A DNA stretch of 64,000 nt, taken from Polytrichum commune. Taxonomy: Eukaryota; Streptophyta; Polytrichopsida; Polytrichales; Polytrichaceae. The stretch covers positions 55,080,758 through 55,144,757 of the forward strand of contig OX485805.1 in the NCBI GenBank assembly GCA_950295325.1, given 5' to 3'. A program made the position numbers and the translations under genes. The notes under the pieces were generated by a model. That model had not been told where the DNA came from. It made no database searches and saw only the letters and a program-made list of their open reading frames with translations. Below, in pieces: positions 9,965-60,741 of this stretch (within the stretch, counting starts at the first letter, position 1; each line of letters opens with the position of its first letter).

Positions 9965-10449
9965 CACTACACCATTTATGTTATTTAGTGTCACATGCAT
10001 AATAGTGTCACTTACCCTATTTTGAGGCGTATGCTAGGTTACACTAATGATCAACAAACGTCACTAGTAGTGTCACCTCATGACACTTGGCATTCAAGTG
10101 CGTTCATTAATATTGGCATGGGTATGTTCTATACTGTTATGGGGTGTATGCCTATGTTACACGATGGGCTACAAGTTGACCAAAGTGTACACAAATGACG
10201 CTTGGCATTAATATGCTAAATAAAATCTTCCCCTTGCATATCAAAAAGCAAAACTATCATGTCAAGTATCCCAATGTGGTATGCTAAATGTCATAATGTA
10301 AATAATTCTTTGCTTTAAGAAGTTACTTATACTGACTAATAATATCATACTGGCAATTAGTGGATGTGACACTTTGAGACCTCTAGGCATCTAGTTTAGG
10401 TCCTTCATAAATAGTGTACATGACACTAAGTACCATAAATGATGTAGTA
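9965..10449 (+). mobile_element. CACTA-like non-autonomous element, copy A
   Basis: The left end starts CACTACACCATTTATG and runs into ATTTAGTGTCAC. The right end carries GACACTAAGTACCATAAATG followed by ATGTAGTAT, so the two ends are inverted copies of about 28 bp. The CACTA terminus is typical of the En/Spm (CACTA) superfamily, although the right terminus is mutated. There is no transposase frame. Related copies lie at 10565-11108 (inverted), 31290-31780 and 61246 onward, so this is a dispersed family of about 490-bp deletion derivatives. Confidence 0.78.
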
Positions 10450-10564
10450 TGACAATGACTCATACGTAAACTCATGCCACATGCCACAACCTCCTTCTTA
10501 CCCCATTTAGTTACCATTAGGTCAATTGGAAACAATCGTGCGAAGAGTTTGCATTCGTGGCCTT

Positions 10565-11108
10565 GACTAAATTGTTTATGGTATTTAATGTCAAGTACAT
10601 TGTTTAAGAAGGGCCTAAACTAGATGCATGTACATCTCAAAGTGTCACATCCTCTAATTGCCAATATGATATTATTTGTCAACATAAGTTACTTTCAAAA
10701 GCGATGTTTTATTTACATTATGACATTAAATATAGCACATTGGGAAACTTGAGATGATAGTTTTGCTTTTTGGTATGCAAGGGGAAGAAATTATTTAGCA
10801 TACTAATGGAAAGTATCATGTGCTTACATTTTAGTATGTAAGAGGAAGATATACTTGAGCATACTAATGTCAAGTGTCACTTGTGTAAACTTCGGTTTAC
10901 TTTTAGGCCATCGTGTAACATAGGCATACACCTCATAACACTATTAAACATACATGTGCCAAGATAATCATAAGCGCACTTGAACGCCAAGTGTCACGAA
11001 GTGGCACTAATGATGAAGTTGTTGATCGTTAGTGTAACCTAGCATACGCCTCGAAATAGGGTAAGTGACACTATCAATCATGTGACAAATACCAAAAACG
11101 GTGTAGTG
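10565..11108 (-). mobile_element. CACTA-like non-autonomous element, copy B, inverted relative to copy A
   Basis: This is the same family as copy A read on the opposite strand. The block around 10610-10680 is the reverse complement of 10340-10410 (AGACCTCTAGGCATCTAGTT in copy A), and 10995-11108 mirrors 9965-10090. The right terminus at 11100-11108 is GGTGTAGTG, an intact CACTA end. The left terminus is degraded to GACTAAATTGTTTATGG. With copy A it forms an inverted pair of about 1.1 kb with a spacer of about 115 bp. Confidence 0.77.
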
Positions 11109-31289: not shown

Positions 31290-31780
31290 AACTACTCCAT
31301 TTAAGGTATTTAGTGGCACATGCGTAATAATGCCACTTACCCTAATTTGAGGCGTACACTAGGTTATATTAATGATCAACAACTTCACCATTAGCATCAC
31401 CTCATGACACTTGGCGTTCAAATGCATGTATTAATATCTTGGCAAGAGTATGTTCAATAATATATTGAGGTGTATCCCTATGTTACACAATAGTCTACAA
31501 GTTGACTAAAGAGCACACAAATGACATTTGATATTGGTATGCTTGATAATTTCTTCCCCTTGGATACTAAATTACAAAACTATCGTCTAAATGTATCCCA
31601 AGGTGCTATCCTAAATCACTTAAAAAAAATTTATGTAAAAAAAAATCACTTAGAAAAAGTTACTAATGTTGACAAATAGTATCATATTGACAATTAGCGG
31701 GCAAGACACTTCAAGACCTCTAGGCATCTAGTTTAGGCCCTTTGCAAGTAGTTCACATGACACTAAATACTAGATAGTGT
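31290..31780 (+). mobile_element. CACTA-like non-autonomous element, copy C
   Basis: This is the same family and orientation as copy A. The left end is ACTACTCCATTTAAGGTATT followed by TAGTGGCACATGCGTAATA. Near the right end are AGACCTCTAGGCATCTAGTT and GACACTAAATAC. The termini are mutated and small A-rich insertions occur near 31620-31650, so this copy is older than A. Confidence 0.72.
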
Positions 31781-32332
31781 GGTCTTTCACAAGTAATTGT
31801 ATCATCAGAATGTTTTTTCATTTTATGTTCTATTTGAAAACCTATATGGGAGTTTACTAAGCAATTACTATGTGAAAGGTGAAGGTTTTTGGCCCCACCT
31901 AGAGGTACTACCCTTTGTGTATGTAGTGATTGCTTTGTAAGCTAGGAGCCTTAGTTTATCTTCAAAACTTATGGTTAATGGGCATTCCCAAAATGGTTTT
32001 GAAGATCAGAAAATTTCAATGGAAAATTCACAAATGTTAGTGGACCCTAATGGCAACAATTCTAGTAACTCATTCTTGTGCTCCATATATAATAAAAATT
32101 ATTTGGTAATAAAAATTAACTTTGCGAGCTTCTGCCTCTTTCTTGGTAGATCAAACCACATTACATTCAAATATTTATACATATAAGACCACATTGAATT
32201 AGGTTGTCTTTTGGTGTCAAATTTATTATACAAATTGGAAAGGAATGTTCTTGTCAGTTTTTGTTGTCATATTCCTCCCAACATATTTTGGAAAGTGCAC
32301 GTTTCTTTGTGAAAGCAACACTACATAAATCA

Positions 32333-32369
32333 AAGAAGAAGAAGAAGAAGAAGAAGAAGAAGAAGAAGC
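32333..32369. repeat. (AAG)n microsatellite
   Basis: About twelve AAG/GAA triplets in a row. The polylysine frame reading through it is an artefact of the repeat. Confidence 0.95.
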
Positions 32370-33360
32370 TATTAAGCTCAATCCAATGCTTCAAAAACTT
32401 TAACAAGTGTTAGGTTGACCTATGAGCAACTCCAAAGGTACATAAGTTACACCCAACACCAACATTGAACCTAAAACTTACACTGCGTACACAACACAAC
32501 TAACGACTATTATTGAAGACAAAGAGCTTGATCTCACCATCATGGGACCCTCCATACAATTGGGAGATTCAAATGTGCAGTTGCGACACATGATGTTGGT
32601 TTTAGGTTATGTGTTATTTTTAGGTATACCTATCTGGCACCTTGTGGATAGTCGAGGTGAATTTGATGTTGCGTGATGCTCCTCGTCCATGGCCGGCCTG
32701 TTTAGCTTAATTGCCGCGCCGTCGACCTTGTCAAGTCCGTTTCAAGTTCAACCCAAATCTTGCACATATTCCCAGGGAATACCACCAGATCTGCTTACCT
32801 TCAAAAGTATGAAACCAGACACACTTGAGCACATTCACGCACCTTTTATGAGTCGAGGGACATGTGTAAGTTACAGATTGGCTCTCAGGGTGTTGTTGAC
32901 TGACTCCAATTTCTGAGCCAGTTGAGTACTCTCTTCAATACCCACTTCTGAGAGTCTGTAACCTAATATGTCTGTGACCATGTCTGTAACTAGCTTGGCT
33001 ACCAGTCACAGCCTTGAGTTGCAAGTAAACTTGATTTCGAGATGTAGACAGCAAATCTGATCTCGACCAGTATTTTATTTCGGATCTGACAGATGTTTTT
33101 GAGCGAGGTTTCATACAATATAGCGGCTGAGACATTAGAGACACTTCCGGGGGTATGTTAGAAAGGAGACGCTTTTGGGACACGTTCAAGGTTTGCTAGT
33201 CTAATTGCCGCAATATAGTCCACAGTAATGCGGAAGTAGCCCGTGGGCGAAGAGGCTCATTGAAAACCCGACGTTCACATCTATGTATTGATCTCTCTCC
33301 ATCTGCACACTGTTGGTGTGAATTTCACTTCCTTCTGTAACCCCCCTGGTTGCGAAAGAT

Positions 33361-34239
33361 ATGTCATCAGATTCTGACAACGAGCAAGAGCCAGTCGGCA
33401 AAAGCCATTCCGATCTGTACAGCGAAATGTTTCGGAACATCCTACAACGTGGCATCAATGCGGAGCTCCCTCCTAGCGAGTTGGCTTCCCAAATCCTCGC
33501 TCTAATTACGGAGAGGGTAGCATCAGCCGACCCGAAGGAGAAGATAAGCACCGATGGCGACACGCCGGGGTTGGAGGAAATGGGCTGGACTCTATGGGGG
33601 ACGGTCGATGTGCTGGCCCGGGAAGACGTGAGCCACCACGACTTGCTCATAGAATTCATCAATGCATTCTACGCATGTTTGCGAGTGCAGGAGGACTGGT
33701 CGCTATGGGGCTACGACATGGTGGACACTAATTTCTTACTCGGCCCGGCATTCCGGGAGTCGTTGCAAGGGGCTGGGCCGGATGCGCAGCTACCGCCCGG
33801 CATCCCCGGGGCGACCGAGGAGGAGCAGAGGATCACGAGTTGGTGCAACTACTGCCGGTTCGTCGCGCGAATGACACGGGACACGGAGCAGGACTTCTCG
33901 TTGTACTTGCTGTGGTTTGCGAGGGAGGCACTCGAGGATTGCACTTGGTGCGTCTGCGAGAACCCCAACGCGGCCATCCTTGCGTTGGAGGGGGTCATCG
34001 AGATTGCTGGTCCGAAGATGTTTGAATCCGACACCGACTTTGGCAAGAGTGGTGATGGTGGGGATGGCGCCCGCCAGTGGACGGGGAAGTCGGGTTTTTG
34101 CAGGGAGAGGTGGATGTTCTGGGAGACAGAGCTACTCAAAATCGCGGGAGACACGTCGCAGTATCCTGCTAGAGTGAAGGATTCGGCACGTCGCACAGCC
34201 GCCAACATGAAATCTATTCGTGAAGGAATGGAGGCATAA
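33361..34239 (+). CDS. DUF3632-like protein, fungal-type, intronless
   Basis: A single uninterrupted frame of 292 residues runs from ATG at 33361 to TAA. The pattern fits the DUF3632 family (PF12311), which I know mainly from ascomycete and basidiomycete fungi and whose function is unknown. Visible features are an acidic N-terminus, a W-T-L-W block at 76-79, a central WCNYCRFVARMTRDT block at 161-175, LYLLWFAREALED at 181-193, an AAILALEGVIEIAG helix, and a late RWMFWETELLKIA block with R250, W251 and W254. There is no signal peptide or membrane segment, so it is probably soluble and intracellular. The coding sequence is clearly GC-rich, while the flanks are AT-rich, and no intron is present. 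No neighbouring gene hints at a role. It is intact, with no stops or frameshifts. The family assignment is by eye. Confidence 0.8.
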   Translation: MSSDSDNEQEPVGKSHSDLYSEMFRNILQRGINAELPPSELASQILALITERVASADPKEKISTDGDTPGLEEMGWTLWGTVDVLAREDVSHHDLLIEFINAFYACLRVQEDWSLWGYDMVDTNFLLGPAFRESLQGAGPDAQLPPGIPGATEEEQRITSWCNYCRFVARMTRDTEQDFSLYLLWFAREALEDCTWCVCENPNAAILALEGVIEIAGPKMFESDTDFGKSGDGGDGARQWTGKSGFCRERWMFWETELLKIAGDTSQYPARVKDSARRTAANMKSIREGMEA

Positions 34240-37200
34240 GAATCCTCCTGCGACCTCCTTCCTCATTGTCACACAGCTGCAGAGAGATGCTCGACCTCGC
34301 ACAGACACACCATGGTTGTCTGAATTTGCCAATACACTTAATTAATGTATTCAGGGACATCATGCTAGGATAATTATCAGGAACATCATAACCTCATTGA
34401 CTTCGTCATCAACATGTAGTAAAGTGAGAAATTTACACGCATTAATAGTTTGCTCAGTGAAGGCAATTCCAAGTGCAAGGGAGGTCTGACATGAAGATCA
34501 ATATTAGAGTCTTCCTCTTTTAGGGTTTTGAGATTGCCCTCAGGATGTCATTCGCTGCTACTGGTCATGCAACCTTTCACTAGCTTGTACTAAGCTCCCT
34601 GGGATCAGATCTGAAGAGCGCCCATGTTCGAAGATAAACTCAACAGTCAAGCACTGAATCGAGCAGTCCAAACACAGGATTCTCCAAACAGTTACCATAC
34701 AAAAGCCAGACTCAATGAGGAAAGGCACAATTGTACATATATCGAGATGGTATACCACAGAGAGCATACAGATAGTTCTTCTTGAGGATGAATTTTGGCT
34801 TTCAATAAAGAGTATTAACACTGGCTATGGACACTTTAGATTCAGTCGGCTCAGTTCAAGTGCTCTTGTCTGAGTGTGTGGTATGTTGTCACAGGGGAGC
34901 AAATCACCAACTAATTTGGCATTCTGCACGATAGAACTTCTGACTGATTTTTCTGAAGCTTCACCCTAACAGGTCGGTAAGTTTCTTGGTGCCAAGTAAG
35001 TATGTCAGAAGTTTTAATATACGCATGAGTCGACATGGAATCCGCCTTTGCATGATCTTGAAATCTCTCAAAGCTTAGGAAACACACATGTATTGATATT
35101 CAACACCTGGCAGTACGCATAATTCTCCACTGACATAAAATTCATATTAAACCTGTGCCAAATGCTTGAAGTTGTATTCACTTGGAAACAGCCATCAGAG
35201 CAATGAAAGCTAATGGCTTCCCAATTCAAGCCCAATCTACATACTCCCTGACAAAACTGAAACTAACTCAACAAACAGAATTGCCCAAACTGAACAAACA
35301 GAAATTTTGGAACTACACAGGAAGGTGATAAAATTGACTTATAGATATGAGCTGTTAGAAACTGCACTAAGTAGTTCTATAACTGTGGGCCACATTGGTT
35401 CTCAACCCACGCTAAACTTTTAATACAAAATTAGCGTGGGCCACATTAATTTCTTTCTTTCTTCTTCTAGAAAATCCATGTGGGTGATTGTTTAATTTTG
35501 TGTTATTTTATTCATATAACTAATAATCAAATCGTTGGTCGGAAATCTTCCTGCAGACTTAGGGGAAGATATGGGGTCTTTTGGACCCACGTTATTTCCA
35601 CTCTGACTAGAAAATTAGTGTACTCTATGTTAATTATTTTAACTCTAATTTTCCACCCACACTAATAGGACTATTTAGTGAGGTTGCTAAGTGCCCATGA
35701 TCTGTGACACACTCTCATTAAGGGATGGCCTAAATTGAGGTTTCGTGTTGTTGCAATTATGGCTCTAACTTATGTGTCGCAATGTAGTTAGGAAGAGCAG
35801 ACATCATCGATGATAAAATTGGAATTTCTTGTAACCTAATTGGGTCTACCAGGTTTTCTTGTCCTTGACAAGTCTTGCCATATTATACATAATTATAGTA
35901 TGCCCACACTAGGGCTAATTGCCACTTCTTGGATGTTGGAGTCCCTCTTATAGGGAAAGTTCATCCCTTTCTAATATTTACTACTTTTAATAAGGATTTT
36001 TTGCCCATAACATTATTCAGCTGCATGGTTGTGTTTCAATCTATATTTAGCATATGACATGAGCCTCCACTATTTTACCTTCATGGGAAGAAACTTAGAA
36101 AACATGAAGAAACTAATGTTGGTACGAATAATGAATAGTGCCAATTTCAATAGTAAGAACTATTGTGCATAGTGTCGGTATTTTCAATGATGATGCTACT
36201 ATAAATAATATTTTTAGGGATGAACAATGTTTCCTACAAATATGCATAGTGCCGGGAGGACAACTCCATCAAAAATTCCATATTCAGCTTGAATGTATGA
36301 ATAGTATACACATATTCTTACTTTGTTCGGGGGGGGGCATAGATTATAATTGACATATTCCAAGGTCATGGAACCGACCCACATGGTCAGAATATGTTAT
36401 CATGCCCTACTCATACTTGTTCACTTCACTCCATACCAAACAAAAACTCTTATGAAGATGAAAACTCTCCCACTCTTGTGGACCACTCGCTAGTCCTTGT
36501 GCGGGGCCACATGCTATTAGTTGATGGCTCAATGTGCCAAATTCACTCTCCAATGATCATTGTCATGCTCATCACCTTTAGATGGAACATTTTATAATCT
36601 AGAATTGACTGAATTCATGTTACCATCGATGGGTTCCAACACTCCCAGTGATGTGTTACTACATTCTCATTGAAAACATACACATACTTTCTTCTTATCT
36701 GAGACTCCCAAAAGTCCAGAAATGTGTTTTAGGTGTTTAAGATTGCTTATTATAATTAATGTAAGCTGAAATTGCAAAAAGCGACCCCACCTAAATTTAA
36801 TCCAAATATCACTAAATCATAGCATAAGTACAATCTGTATGAAGAAATCAAAAGATTAAGTTACATTAAAAGCTAGGATTTAAGTGTATTTTGGATTTAT
36901 GCATGAATTTTGGACAATTTTCAGCCGTCAATATGACATTACCCTAAATTGCAAAACTAAACAAGTATGGTGGTTGGCAAATATGGAAATTGAACATTCG
37001 AAGTTGTGGTTGTTGGGTTGTTGTTTTTGTGTTGTTATTTGATGGTGTGGGGCCCATAAGTGCACATCCCTTGTTGTTTTAGGATATAAGTGGTTTGTCC
37101 ACATATACTTTGATATTAGTTTAAATTTGTATAAATGACCTAGGCTCAAATATATACCATGTATATCTTATCACCATTTAAAATTATGATTGTTTCATCC

Positions 37201-39794
37201 ATTGGGGAGGGGGGCATGCACTCTTCTTTGAGTGGGAGCCATGTGCATGCATGACCTTTTATTAAAACCCCTTATATACAAAGTTTTCTTGACAAATTAT
37301 AGACTACATAATAGTCTCATGTATTTTTTAAGGGAATTGTGAAATCCTAGAGTATATTGCCTCAATTATGTATACAAAATATAAGTGTTTGGAAGAAAGT
37401 TAGCCATTACTTGTATACGTGTATTCCTTGTATAAATTAGCCATATATATATATGTATCTTCCTATTGACAAATTTATGGAGTTGTGACATGGACAAATG
37501 TTGCTTCATGATTGGAAACACATGAACTATTAGGGGGTCTTGGGGGGTGCACTTTGCATTGGAATTCTACATGACATATGTGAGTGACTATGAAATAAAG
37601 TCTTATATATACATTAAATTTATAGAGGAAAGCAAAGTATAAGTACTAATGTTATAATGTTAAATTATCGATTACGTATTTATAATGATGATTCCAATAT
37701 AATGTAAGAAGCACCTCATATACATACACAAAATATAAATCATGGAAAAAACATTGTTTTTGTTTTGTTTTATTTTCTTAAGTATATATAATCTACCTTC
37801 ACTTTTGAGTGAGAAAGGATTGGAGACAAGTTTTTCATCAATTTGATGTAAGTCATAATTATTTGACTCGCAACATACTTCATTGAAGTTGGGGCAAGAA
37901 CCATACTAAATTAGTGTCAATTATTTCTTATATTTTCATAAAATCTTAAAGTTATTATTTAAATTGAAAATTGAAAAAGATAAAATGTCTAGAATTAAAA
38001 ACAAACATCCAAAATTTGGAAGGCTAACAAACAAAAAATGCTTCCCAAACCCTGGGACTAAATACCCCAATCTATCCAAAAGGATTTATAGTTAATTCCT
38101 TAACTTTCCACTCCATTTGCAAGATAAGATTTTGGAAAAATGGTGAGAACTTTAAGGAAATTGTGATTCATAAAAAGATACTCAAGATTGAGGGTTGATC
38201 TTAGATTTTTTTTATTTGTTTTTAAAGTTATCATAGAACTGAAACTTTCCAATCGAAAAATTTGGATATGATCATTGGAATGATGGTCAATTTACTAGTA
38301 TTGAGGGTCATTTTAATTATGGACCATTTTATCCTTGTGCAAGTGTAAACATTCCAGGTTTAATGGACTCTTCTCCTCAACGAGTAAACTTTGTGTATTT
38401 CACAAAATTAAGTTGAAACAGGAGGAAAGTGTCTACAAGGAAGAGTAGATAAATGAAATCCGCTATGCGTCAACATATGGGGGCATTCACGGTTGGGGTA
38501 CTACTTTTGAGTGTCTAACGGTTAAAGGACTAAATTAGATAACTTTACATAGCTGGTGTGCTTAGATTTGTATTATGAAGCATATTTTGGATCATACCTA
38601 CATTTAATATTCCATATTGAGTACACCGACAAAGTTAATTTACAAGGAATAGGATTATCTAAGATGTCATTTTGATTCCTTAACGGACATCCATGGGTGA
38701 TGTCAAAATTGTTGACCTTAGGATCAAGGAATGAAAAGGACAACAAAATCAATTGGAATGATCCCAATTTTTTTCCTCACAATTATCGTTCGATTGTGTA
38801 CCAATAGAACTAAAAATGTATTGCATACCAATTGTATAGCTTTACATATGACACCGAACATGGCCAACAATATACAATAACATGGCTACATGAAAAATGA
38901 ATGTTTAGTATTAGAATTGGACATTAATAATATATATGAATGGACACATGACACTTACACCAAGGTACTAGGATGGAAACCAGGAAATAATTCACCTCCG
39001 ATGTACACTCCAATGATGAAATTGCTATTGATGTGGCCCAAACAAGTCATATGACCTCTTTACAAGTTCTATGACTTATCTACTCATTTCATAAAGGATT
39101 TATCTATTATTGATGATTATTTAATAATAAATAATATCTTTCTTGATAAGTCCTATGACCTATCTACTTATTTATTTAAAATTTATTGATCAAATAATAG
39201 TAAATCATAATAAACACCGAGATCCAATGCGACATAGTCCTTAATTCCTTTGTCCCAAAAGTAGTACCCTAATTGTGAATGGCCCCATATGCAATCTCCA
39301 TTATGGAACCCGCACATGCAAAATTGCATATACAAACAACCTCGGTAAAAAAAACCCGCCAATGATAAGGCAAGGGAGAACCGTGTAATTGCTAAGGAAG
39401 ATCAAAGAAAGAAAGTTGAGAGAAGAAAGAGTTGGTTAAGATCCATCCTTAATTTACAAGATTGAAAATTATGATACTAGATTACATTTGGGTAGAAAGG
39501 AAGGTCAAGAGAGGAAGTCACCTCTTAAACCTCAACATCGAGAATTTGACAAGCACAAAAGGTTCACAATCCTCTGAACCCTTTACCTCATGTATCACCA
39601 CCAATATTACCTTCTCCACCTTCATCGATCCCCATCGTTGTCTTCAAACCCCCCCCCCCCCCTCCCTCATCATCAATCATCTTCTAGTCACATGGCCAAT
39701 CTTGCTCCTAGAATAATTAATATAGTCATATCCCATACTTCCTTAGAAAATTGGGATTAGATCTAAATACACATGTGGCAAAGTTCATAATTAC
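34240..39794. other. Gene-free stretch with dispersed repeat fragments
   Basis: No gene is seen. 36290-36410 is related to 61440-61545; both carry GAATGTATGAATAG, ATCTTACTTT or ATTCTTACTTT, a G-run and ATGGAACCGAYCCACATGGT. Parts of repeat R2 recur at 37210-37400 and 37530-37870. Homopolymers include a G-run at about 36330-36338 and a C-run at about 39650-39662. 35390-35470 repeats GTGGGCCACATT twice in a hairpin-like setting around CCCACGCTAA/TTAGCGTGGG. Confidence 0.55.
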
Positions 39795-42700
39795 TTGTGC
39801 GACAAATTATGTCCATGTTGCCAATTTTCTAGAAGTCTTTGTTGCATCTTACAAGAAGATGCATGTGCATGGTATCAAAGGCAACCACCGTTTGTTGATT
39901 GGAATGCATTGAGAAATGTATTCCTAGCTCATTTTAGACCATTAAGCTTTGCGAGTAGTTTAAAAGAAAAAGTATGTACTATAAGAATGGGTATCAATGA
40001 GAGAGTTGATAATTATTATGTCAAAATGCAAGATATTTTTGGCAATATATGGAAAATCACCAAATCCCAGATGATTCTTTATGATTGTATTTATTGGTGG
40101 AAATTTGAGAAGATATGTTTAGGAATGAGCCACCTCTACATGTGCACAAGCTTATGCACGAGCCAAAACATGGGAAGAATGTCGATTGGAAAATCACTTG
40201 GGTATATACATTGATAACACATATTCAAACAACCCTATTCCTTCCCATTCTAGTTTCTTTCCTAACATTAATCATAATCAACATTATATTATGAATGCAC
40301 CAACAATACAAAATTCTAATGCACCATTGTATACTCAACCTACGGTGAGTGTACCAACACAACAAGATCATGTATTTATTAAGCATGGCAATGCTATATG
40401 GAATTTGTCTGAGCAATTGTCAAAAGAGAATTAATCAAAATAGCAAACAATAAACCTAAAAGACCACAACCCACAAAAGAGAGATGGAACATTTCGTGTC
40501 ATAATTGCAAAGGTCAAGGCCACCTTGCTAATAAATATCTTACTCCAAAAGGATTTGAAATCAAATGCATCTTATGTGGAGAAAGTCACATTGTACATGA
40601 TTGTTGGAATTTCAAACAACAAAAGTTTGTGAATTAGATTGATACCAATTGAATTTTTCTTTGGTAACAAGAACAAGATGGACCCGGTCCTAATGTAAAC
40701 TATATTACCAAACGGGATTTTAATTGTTGACCTGTACCATTAATTTTCAAGGACATTCTAATTGGAATCAACAAAAAACTATTCCAATTGAAATACACCT
40801 TCATCTTATGATCAAATATTTAAGAGGTCTAATTCAAACCAAGATGACCCATGTAAGATTCATGTATGTTACAAATGTAAAGAACTTGGGCATCACGCAA
40901 ATAGTTGCCCAAATCCTAGGAAACCACAAGATTATGTACCTTTGTGCAGTAATTGTGAAACACCCGGACATCCTACACTGAATGTCATCATCCTAAAAAG
41001 GAATATCCTCCAAATGAGAGTGATTGGAATAAAGATAAATGAATAAGGATTCAAGGTCATGATGATGAAGAGAGAGGAACAAGGAATGTAAATCATGTTC
41101 AATACTTCTTTACTTCATCATCTAAGCAACCTTAGATCAAAGGTGGTAACTACAAGACCCTAACCTCCAACGGAACCATATCCAATAGTTAATGACAATA
41201 ATAATAATAATGCAAGTAATAGTGAATTAATGGATATGTTAAATGAAATGATCCTTAAATTTTTTTTTTATCAAGGATCCTTATGTGGTGATCAAAACCA
41301 CCTCTACACTTGTGGTTTTACCAGTGGTGAAAGTGGTGCAACTAGTGTCTATACCTTTGACCATCCTACATATTTTTGTTAATCATCAATTAGTGTATGC
41401 TAGCAAAATTATATTGTTACAGAGCAAGTAACTTGGGTGGGATTTTCTTAGTATAAAAGTTTCGTTATTGCCTCTTGGGAAACAATTTTGTTTTCATTTG
41501 GATCACGATGCATTGAAATATATGATCAGTAAACCTCAACTAAGTGGAAGAATTGCAAGATGGGTATTACATTTGTAAGAATTGAAGTTAGACCAAGCAA
41601 AAGTCATGTTAACGTTGATCACCTCTTGAGATTGAATAAAAAATCGGAATCTAAAGCCATTGATGATTCTTTTCTACATGCCCAATTATTTTACATAGAT
41701 ATAAACCTTAAAGAATATGCCAAAATAAATGAATATATTCAAAACAACAAATTCCCTTCAAACTTTATGGAAAAAAACAACACCTATTCATTTTTTAAGC
41801 AATGTCTTATACCATCATTGCTGACACTTTGTATACAAAAGGTAAAGATGGTATCCTACATCAATGTGTCACCAGTTATGAGATACCTCTAGTTTTAATA
41901 AAAAAAATAAAAATCACGATAATATGGTTGGAGGTCATTTTGTAGGAGATGTCATTGCAAGGTTTTTTTCACAAAGTGGTTATTTGTGGCCTACCCTTTT
42001 CTTTGACTACACAACTTAAACAAGATAATGTGATGCGTGTCAGAGAATAGGCAAACCAACTAACTATTTTGCAATGCCACTCACAATCATATTAGCTCTT
42101 GCACCTTTTGAAAAATGGAAAATTGATTTTGTGGGTCCCATAAATCCCCCAAGCCATCATGGTAGATATCAATATATTTTAATGGCTATAGACTATATCA
42201 CCAAATGAGTGGAAGCTGAAGCCACTAGAAAAGATGGTAAACATGTAGTTATTGAATTCTTGAAAGAAATTTAGATTCTAACATGTTATGGTTGTCCAAA
42301 AGAGTTCTTAAGTGATCGTGGGACTCACTTTTTAAATGATGTTATTCAGCAACTGAAAGAATAATACAACATCAAACATCATTTTATTGCACTATGCCAT
42401 CCATGAGCTAGTGGTCAAACAAAAAATAAAACTAATAGAATCTTGTATAAAATCATTACCAAAATAGTTCAAAATTCTAAGATTGATTGGGATAGCAAAT
42501 TGTTAGATGTATTATGGACTTATCACATTGCTTACAAAGTGACTACTAAATTTACACCTTTCCAGTTAGTTCATGGTCAAGAAGCTAACCTACCTATTGA
42601 ATCAAAAATGCTTTCATTACAAATTGCTATTGATGAACATTTGAATGATGATAAATCTCTTCAAGAAAGAGTTGCAATGTTAGAACGTTTGGATGAAGTA

Positions 42701-57591: not shown

Positions 57592-59460
57592 ATGGCTGTG
57601 TGTTTGAGAAGCCGGTCGTTGATGCACAGTGGGATTGTGAATCTTCGCGACGGTGAATTGGAGAATGGACCGGTCGTTGTTGCGTCCATCAGTGGCAGGG
57701 ATAGTGCAGGGTCCTTCAAGGAGAATTCGTGCTGTGATTCTACTAGTTTGGGGCTAAGGCAGAGGAGCCAGCCCGGGAAGAGGTTCACCTTGCAAGTTAT
57801 AAGCAAAGCTGGAAGTGATCAATCGTCGAGCACATCCAAAGGAAAAAACTCAAACCTGCCACAAATACAAATATTGCAGCGATCTCCATCTGCCTTTGAG
57901 TGGTCGGAGATGATTGAAAGAAGCAAGTCTACCTCCAGCTTCAATGTGAAAGAATCTGGCATTCAGCCACTGCACACTCAAGACGAGGATGATAATGCAG
58001 GTGAAGGAAACAACAAGATGTTCAAAGAGGATCATTCTTGTTTGGGAAAAATATCAACAACATTTAGGAGGCCGCTGGCAGAGAGGTGGAGAGAAATTCA
58101 GGGAGAGAGAAAGTGGAAAGGGTTGCTAACTCCCCAGTTGGACTCCGTCCTCCGCACCGAAATCCTAAAGTGCGGGGAATTTGCGCAGGCCAACTACGAT
58201 GCATTCGACTACGACCCAACCTCCAAGTACTGCGGCAGCAGCAGGTTCAACAAGAAGAAGTTGCTGGAAAATGTGGGATTGGAGAACAGCGGTTACGAAG
58301 TCACCAAGTTCCTGTACGCAATGGCCAATGTGAACGTCCCCAAGTTTTTTCGTCACTCGAGTATTGTAACTGAAGACTCGACGGGTGTGGACGAGATCTG
58401 GAGCAGGCACTCCAACTGGATGGGATTCATCGCCGTCGCCACAGACGAGAAGGAGATTCGGAGGCTAGGTCGAAGAGACATCATGGTGTCGTGGCGAGGC
58501 ACGGTGATGGCGTTGGAATGGATGGAGAATCTGCGTGACTTCCTAGCTCCCACCAGCCCCGGGCATCATGAAAGCAGGGTGGTGGATGGGTGCAATCGGA
58601 AGGTGAAGGTGGAGAGAGGCTTCCTCTCACTTTACACCTCCAAAGATGCCACCACAAAGTACAACAAGAACAGCGCAGCCGAACAGGTGAAGATGGAGAT
58701 TCAGAGACTCGTGGAATTGTATTCAGATGAGGAACTCAGTATCACCATCACTGGTCACAGCCTGGGTGGAGCTCTTGCAACTCTCTCAGCTTACGACATA
58801 GCCAACAGTAACTGCACCCAGAGGCCGCAAGTAAAACTCCAACAACAAAGTAACAACAAAGAAGCTGGACATGATGAATCTGATGCATCAAGGCTTGACA
58901 ATATGAGCATTCCCATCACAGCATTCACGTTTGCATCTCCGAGAGTGGGTAACGATGCATTCCGGGACCGGTTGCTTGAGCTTGGCGTGCACGTGTTGCG
59001 CATTGAGAATAAGTTTGACATTGTGCCTAAAGTCCCTGGCCTTTTTGTGAACGAAAGAGCCTTCACCATGTTCGGCGGCTTGGAGCAGCTTGTTAGTCCG
59101 TGGCTGGACAGAATCCCATGGACGTATACTCATGTTGGCGAGGAGCTGAAGCTCGACCAGACCAGATCCGCCTTCCTGAAGACCAAGAAAGACTATGGGA
59201 ATAGCCACAATTTGGAGCTTTATCTGCATCTGCTGAGTATATACCAAGGGCCCCAACTGCCATACAAGGGCGTGACGGTGGACAGGGACATTGCTCTTGT
59301 CAACAAATCCTGCAATCAACTCAAAGACGAACTTCGTGTGCCTGCATGCTGGTATCAATTAGAAAACAAGGGCATGGAGCAACAGAAGGGCCGGTGGGTA
59401 TTGCCTGATCGGGCCGACGATGACGTTCCCTCCAGCGATGCTCACGACGACTGGGTTTGA
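57592..59460 (+). CDS. Phospholipase A1, class I (PLA1-I gamma / DAD1-like), probably plastid-targeted
   Basis: One exon of 622 residues encodes a lipase_3-type acylhydrolase. This family removes the sn-1 acyl chain from membrane phospho- and galactolipids, and some members feed jasmonate synthesis. The start ATG has a strong context (CACCATGG). Residues 1 to about 150 are Ser/Arg-rich and low in acidic residues at first, consistent with a transit peptide and linker. The family core begins near 160 (RWREIQG) and includes FAQANYDAFDYDP and YGAxx-like CGSSRF. VSWRGTV (299-305) is the oxyanion-loop region. GHSLGG has nucleophile Ser390. NKFDIVPKVPG has Asp476. SHNLELYLHLL has His539. A Gln/Asn-rich insert follows the nucleophile helix, near 410-430. 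The length fits the class, and nothing is broken. The exact substrate and localisation are inferred. Confidence 0.95.
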   Translation: MAVCLRSRSLMHSGIVNLRDGELENGPVVVASISGRDSAGSFKENSCCDSTSLGLRQRSQPGKRFTLQVISKAGSDQSSSTSKGKNSNLPQIQILQRSPSAFEWSEMIERSKSTSSFNVKESGIQPLHTQDEDDNAGEGNNKMFKEDHSCLGKISTTFRRPLAERWREIQGERKWKGLLTPQLDSVLRTEILKCGEFAQANYDAFDYDPTSKYCGSSRFNKKKLLENVGLENSGYEVTKFLYAMANVNVPKFFRHSSIVTEDSTGVDEIWSRHSNWMGFIAVATDEKEIRRLGRRDIMVSWRGTVMALEWMENLRDFLAPTSPGHHESRVVDGCNRKVKVERGFLSLYTSKDATTKYNKNSAAEQVKMEIQRLVELYSDEELSITITGHSLGGALATLSAYDIANSNCTQRPQVKLQQQSNNKEAGHDESDASRLDNMSIPITAFTFASPRVGNDAFRDRLLELGVHVLRIENKFDIVPKVPGLFVNERAFTMFGGLEQLVSPWLDRIPWTYTHVGEELKLDQTRSAFLKTKKDYGNSHNLELYLHLLSIYQGPQLPYKGVTVDRDIALVNKSCNQLKDELRVPACWYQLENKGMEQQKGRWVLPDRADDDVPSSDAHDDWV

Positions 59461-60640
59461 TAAGTCTGATCGATGCATTTCGGCACATATTAATAACTAG
59501 ATTCAGTTAATTGTAAACACAATTCAATGCAAGGTACTTATATACAGTGGCCCTATTCTGGGCACTTCCAACTCCAGACAGTTTTGGCTGTTGGATCGGA
59601 TCGGGAATTGCCTCATCCGGTTAGGAATTGCTACTGACGAATATTGTCATTTCGAGTTTCAGAATATCAGGAACTGATTTGATGCAAAGGTTAGAGTCTA
59701 GGTGTAGAATTTATTTCTCTTCACATAGGCCCTCCAAATTGTATAAACTATTGATTTTAGAGTGGTATACATAAATTTTTGAGCATATAAAATTCTCCAA
59801 TCTCCTCGTAACACACGTTCTATCTTTTTGGGTGTCTGTTCATAACTACAAGCATTGCCATATACTACATTGAACACGCACGGATTAAATCTTGCTGGGT
59901 AATTTGTAACAGGTTAACTTCAATTTTTAAGACCTCCAATTTAGGCGGAGGGTCATAAGAAACTGCAATAGACTATTCATTGGAGCTAATTTTCTCACCC
60001 AGCAACAAATTTTCAAGGAAAATTGTCATTGCTCGTTCCATCCGAAGACCATTCGAGCTGCTTCCTAAGTTACAAATATTATTACGCTGTCACCATACAG
60101 AATTTGGAACATACCGCAGTTGAGGGTTAAAGTGCTTCATCTATGTTCATGGACATCAGGGGATAACTTTGGGAAAATAAATATGGACATGTAAGCTTCG
60201 GAAATTTTCAATAATGATCTTCCGCTCAACTAGTTCCATGTGTTAGGATGCAACAAGGGCAACAGAAACTACCCACACTGTGTGATTCATAGAGAGATGA
60301 AGACAGAAATTCAGCACGCTGCCATCTGCTGGTGCATAAGTATTAGTAGTGGACAGGAACTTTCGTATGGAGTATGGCACCGGTGGGTGATACAATGGCA
60401 TGGTTTATTGGTGACTTGCAGAAAACACAAGAAAGATTCTCAGCTTTAAGTCCCTTGTCAAATATTTATACTCCACAATCCCACTTTCTACGAAAGTTCC
60501 CGAAATTCCCTTCATGAATTCTTGTCACGGCATTTCACTGTCAATGTTGTCAGTCCATACACAAATTCGTTACCCTTTCGACTTGATATGAGTGATAGCA
60601 TAGTAACCGTCATACCCTCTTGGATGCAAAAGAGAACGAA
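59461..60640. other. 3' flank, no gene seen
   Basis: The first 100-200 bases are probably 3' UTR of the phospholipase gene, although I see no clear AATAAA. The rest has only short chance frames. Confidence 0.5.
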
Positions 60641-60645
60641 AAGAA

Positions 60646-60741
60646 TGGACCATTTCTCGATTTGTGCGTGTCATTCTTGCGCAAAGGTCATGCTAATCTT
60701 CTATGTATCATTCCAATTTAATCAGATGTCTCCAAAGAGAC
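60646..60741 (-). pseudogene. U6 spliceosomal snRNA pseudogene
   Basis: Read on the minus strand, the sequence follows plant U6 snRNA end to end. It starts GTCTCTTTGGAGACATCTGA (5' stem-loop), then has the TTGGAA block, GAAGATTAGCATG (with the AGC catalytic triad), GCGCAAGAATGACACGCACA and AATCGAGAAATGGTCCA. About ten substitutions are visible, mostly C-to-T or G-to-A. One lies in the ACAGAGA box that pairs with the 5' splice site, which reads ACATAGA. Upstream on that strand I see no USE (RTCCCACATCG), so a transposed or decayed copy is more likely than a working gene. Confidence 0.88.

Follow-up and report, generated by a model that had tools for sequence, protein, structure and literature searches.

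A 64,000-nt stretch of the genome of the moss Polytrichum commune (contig OX485805.1, positions 55,080,758 to 55,144,757; hereafter, the window, to which all positions refer unless a contig is named) carries a DUF3632 gene at 33361–34239 on the plus strand, which runs from the ATG at 33361 to the stop at 34239 and comprises 292 codons plus the stop, with no intron. The uninterrupted, intronless 292-codon frame described in the initial annotation was thus recovered, with zero internal stops in the stop-to-stop stretch 33322–34236 and a product of 292 aa. A search with PF12311.13 located the DUF3632 match at 33601–34131 (residues 81–257; E = 2.7e-19). Its score of 70.7 bits, compared with the curated Pfam gathering cut-off of 23 bits, and its coverage of profile positions 3–174 of 175 place the product in DUF3632, as had been assigned. 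At 57% GC, the probability that 305 codons stay open by chance is 1.3e-5 per start; frame length by itself is weak evidence for a gene, and it is homology that settles the question. The gene had also been described as richer in GC than its surroundings. The difference was confirmed (57.1% versus 38.0% for the window), but it is mostly one of coding versus non-coding DNA that leaves a mild excess, because the six host coding stretches used for comparison reach similar values. Four of these are frames, at 46.2, 50.5, 54.9, and 55.2%, and the other two are matches to MIF4G, at 42.8 and 60.8%; together they cover 42.8–60.8% GC, and the DUF3632 gene lies at their upper end; its GC at third codon positions (GC3; 69.6%) exceeds that of the four host frames (49–60%). 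Over six host stretches so mild an excess was not taken as a decisive sign of foreign origin.

The gene position was calculated from the window offset as C3:55114118–55114996, at ~55.1 Mb on the 59.16-Mb contig C3. Seven large contigs (77.9, 70.3, 59.2, 59.1, 52.9, 44.7, and 42.1 Mb) make up 406 of the 408 Mb of the assembly, and its plastid-type contig carries rbcL, psaA, and psaB, which bears out that the genome is that of a plant; another frame on this contig we take to be rpoA-like. PsaA scored highest against 8htu (1724 bits) and against 6l35, 7ksq, 7kux, and 7xqp (1704), ahead of 9lut (1698) and 7wfd (1651); PsaB did so against 8htu (1705), 6l35 and 7xqp (1702), and 7ksq and 7kux (1701), ahead of 9lut (1667) and 7wfd (1630). 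The five leading entries come from Physcomitrium patens, which points to a moss as host, and both the number of large contigs and the rpoA-like frame would suit Polytrichales. Within the 407.8-Mb genome, PF12311 matched only the DUF3632 gene (two candidates scored). When the 3.1-kb stretch 32200–35300 was searched against the genome, it retrieved itself once and seven short dispersed fragments, all of which matched the upstream stretch 32438–32635, and no second copy of the gene or its close flanks was found. Furthermore, repeats of at least 120 nt bracketing the gene occurred as pairs 138–157 nt long and 18–20 kb apart, so that no element was seen around the gene. Capture by a transposon was rejected on these two grounds. 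Contamination had been raised as an alternative by the initial annotation; however, the single copy at ~55.1 Mb of a 59.2-Mb contig and the relatives in other plants supported the view that the gene is integrated in the host chromosome.

Relatives were sought by a method that works through five-residue words shared between sequences. The first protein search yielded five matches from 817 candidates. A profile search of a 5.8-billion database, in which 7996 candidates were scored, yielded 11, six of them new. An organism is named for two of these 11. Ceratodon purpureus M758_5G186800 is 56% identical to the moss protein (61% over residues 99–292), and O6H91_05G013600 of the lycophyte Diphasiastrum complanatum, encoded on a 78-Mb contig, is 57% identical (58% over the same residues). 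P0001, which represents 17 sequences, is 96% identical, and P0002, P0004, and P0006–P0010 align and cluster with the named plant proteins. P0011, from a metagenome source, is only 28% identical to the moss protein; it was taken as fungal-like because it scored 130 bits against PF12311, versus 35–71 bits in the plant rows. Among the 11 matches, no fungal protein was listed by name and no close fungal match was found. A search started from P0011 returned P0011 alone, and hence no donor tree was obtained. It is worth noting that the published members from ryegrass and Epichloe did not appear under their names either; the searches have thus probably missed relatives, and a lineage missing from the match list may still carry the gene. 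A prokaryotic or viral source was rejected, as two pattern-limited scans returned 79 and 34 stretches, none of them a relative. As side observations, the Diphasiastrum gene model (P0005) begins inside the domain and is one residue short in the conserved SLYLLWFA block, which points to an error in the model or to a copy in decay, and P0010, which scored only 35 bits against PF12311 and lacks the GKSGFC block, is perhaps a decaying paralogue.

Two blocks stand out in the alignment. The first, WxNxCRFVARMTRDT, is encoded at 33841–33885 (+; residues 161–175, end of helix 6), and its W161, N163, F167, A169, R170, and T172 are invariant in all 12 aligned rows. The second, GGDGxRxWxGKSGFCxERWxFW, falls within a conserved glycine-rich loop and the start of helix 9, which together are encoded at 34033–34128 (+; residues 225–256). 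Within loop residues 225–247, 11 of 23 positions are invariant (gaps uncounted) in the eight of 11 plant rows used for the conservation table, from which P0001, P0006, and P0007 were omitted; P0011 has the identical residue at 11 of 21. Comparison with P0001 placed 8 of 11 replacements in residues 1–100 (p = 0.011) and found the replaced sites less conserved than chance (0.66 versus 0.78; p = 0.033); two of the 11 hit positions at which the remaining plant rows do not vary. This pattern suggests purifying selection on the DUF3632 domain. The claim that the gene is intact and retained was likewise borne out by P0001 and by the more distant relatives in Ceratodon and others.

Phylogenetic analysis had P0011 as the only outgroup, on a branch of length 6.2, and one alignment used 11 of the 12 rows (P0006, a near-copy of P0004, was omitted); any nesting of the plant proteins in a fungal clade has to be read against this single fungal-like sequence. 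The Ceratodon group was separate from the window group, with only two of nine inner branches well supported, and Diphasiastrum fell with the window group at supports of 90/90, 92/91, and 89/89 in the trees. Forcing the ten non-lycophyte plant rows into one clade cost 2.25 log units (approximately unbiased test, p-AU = 0.161), in a test that treats rows without an organism name as mosses. This result allows moss descent with a deeper lycophyte line and separate acquisition alike. Since another moss and a clubmoss carry relatives, the gene is an old one retained in plants, and recent transfer is unlikely. A vertically inherited plant clade, which the initial annotation had named as evidence against transfer, was thus realized only in part, through the host moss, Ceratodon, and one lycophyte. 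Its proposal of fungal acquisition fared similarly: the plant genome, the DUF3632 assignment, the chromosomal integration, and the retention stood, and the fungal donor is a probable one, with the distant P0011 in place of any named fungal protein.

In the literature consulted, PF12311 members are described in ryegrass and in ascomycetes. The gene of ryegrass and further Loliinae, LpDUF3632, is a plant nuclear gene reported as a fungal transfer; it is expressed, with a ratio of nonsynonymous to synonymous substitution rates (Ka/Ks) of 0.31, is 96% identical to Epichloe, has a putative intron, and is limited to one grass subtribe (PMC7670438). Both it and the moss gene are DUF3632 genes in a plant nucleus; however, the moss gene is intronless, shared with Ceratodon and a lycophyte, and no close fungal match to it was found. 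LpDUF3632 is the nearest transfer precedent, but a recent one that does not explain the moss gene. P0011 and the moss protein have the W-x-N, REALED, and GKxGFCxERW blocks in common, whereas GxGGDGxR, which precedes the GKSGFC block in most plant rows, is missing from P0011. Further moss genes of fungal origin are in print (PMC11228847, PMC12454661). In the excerpts naming DUF3632 or PF12311, no mention of a moss DUF3632 gene was found.

How the gene reached mosses was then weighed. On balance, we favor a fungal ancestor that entered long before the window species arose, by one of two routes. In the first, a fungal gene would have passed once into an early land plant, with losses later; in the second, mosses and lycophytes would each have taken up a fungal gene independently. 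The latter belongs to a wider set of accounts with two or more events, including transfer between mosses and clubmosses, which we consider unlikely. The placement of Diphasiastrum with the window group speaks for them, and so does nicotianamine synthase, one gene acquired separately by several plant lineages (PMC12454661). With a single lycophyte, however, an unrooted tree always allows the root on the lycophyte branch, and holding the other plants together was not rejected at the p-AU above. The sole outgroup also sits on a very long branch.

Alternatively, DUF3632 may be an old eukaryotic family that survives in fungi, clubmosses, and part of the mosses after most plants and algae lost it, with no transfer at all. 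We rate this last-one-out explanation as rather unlikely. It is consistent with the similar identities of two deeply separated plant groups, Ceratodon and Diphasiastrum, and with the single non-lycophyte clade not being rejected; moreover, a published critique of transfer claims describes such a distribution, and it applies to DUF3632 (PMC13047068). Many losses would be required, however, and none of the 11 matches carries the name of a seed plant, fern, liverwort, hornwort, or alga, a count to be read with two named matches in a word-based search of 7996 scored candidates. A last possibility is that the host genome alone acquired the gene from a fungus recently, or that it was contaminated; the fungal-type family and the GC and GC3 at the upper end of the host stretches would fit it, but the single chromosomal copy, the lack of a close fungal match among those retrieved, and the Ceratodon and Diphasiastrum relatives contradict it, and we regard it as very improbable. 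Compared with the transfer question, the predicted fold is the more useful result.

The protein is predicted to be all-helical, with ten helices at 33406–34233 (+; residues 16–291) that can be read as five HEAT-like pairs in a MIF4G-like arrangement. By structural re-alignment, its nearest PDB neighbors were MIF4G and Gle1 domains, and the model thus points to a MIF4G-like protein resembling the eIF4G core. It differs from MIF4G domains (eIF4G middle domain, DAP5, Paip1, CWC22, UPF2, NOT1, CBP80) and Gle1 in an identity of only 6–13% in the rows listed and in its glycine-rich conserved loop, which is its own and was modeled with low confidence at residues 228–244. A sequence link to MIF4G was rejected, since PF02854 matched none of the 12 rows at E 10 and hhalign gave 0.2% and 0.1%. 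Neither MIF4G nor eIF4G appeared in the DUF3632 literature excerpts checked for both terms, PMC7670438 included. Separately, the host genome carries two near-identical 615-codon MIF4G frames ~120 kb apart on contig C6, presumably CWC22-like, while contig C1 bears a pair of eIF4G-like frames separated by 29 kb; each pair is a local duplication.

Tentatively, and with rather low confidence, we propose that the protein acts as a free-standing MIF4G-like adaptor in the cytosol or nucleus, where it would hold a DEAD-box RNA helicase or RNA-protein partner in the way eIF4G, CWC22, Gle1, and NOT1 do; its N terminus is hydrophilic, with no signal peptide by eye. The conserved glycine-rich loop with GKSGFC, which joins helix 8 to helix 9, may serve as the adaptor's own contact site. 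The resemblance could instead be a general likeness among HEAT arrays, the protein acting in self-recognition, in signaling, or in an enzyme-like role, a prospect that we place only just short of even. The lack of a sequence link to MIF4G, the other ARM/HEAT proteins at Foldseek ranks 3–7, and the caution due in structural comparison of helical models favor this reading, as do the expansion of DUF3632 in Clonostachys and the filing of one fungal member as peroxidase-like. Taken as a whole, the proposal of a long-established moss DUF3632 gene, under selection, fungus-derived, and MIF4G-like, appears evenly poised between right and wrong. More broadly, and quite doubtfully, DUF3632 might be an unrecognized MIF4G-like family whose free-standing members are related to the eIF4G core or imitate it, and which multiplied in fungi and was acquired more than once by land plants, anciently by mosses and clubmosses and recently by ryegrass, as a portable regulator of DEAD-box RNA helicases.

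A family without an assigned function, recorded from fungi in the literature consulted, is thus of long standing in mosses and occurs in a clubmoss as well; because the gene is kept intact, it is probably of use to plants. The predicted MIF4G-like fold gives this family a hypothesis that can be tested in fungi and plants, that of an RNA-helicase partner, and the gene offers a clean test case of ancient transfer versus last-one-out loss.

Elsewhere in the window, the statement that most other coding sequence is broken was only partly right, as an intact, intronless class-3 lipase frame of 622 aa lies at 57592–59460 (+); its nearest solved relatives are phospholipase A1 chains, and it is an ordinary gene of the same window. 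A U6 small nuclear RNA match at 60639–60741 (−) scored 89.4 bits over positions 1–105 of the Rfam model; we take it to diverge from canonical U6 and perhaps to be a pseudogene. A weak Retrotrans_gag match at 39747–40211 (+; E = 0.00099, below the cut-off) is a possible retrotransposon remnant. Finally, an imperfect inverted repeat with 270-nt arms, 83% complementary, occupies 10179–10835, and the adjoining 10830–11087 is 78% complementary to 31314–31571.
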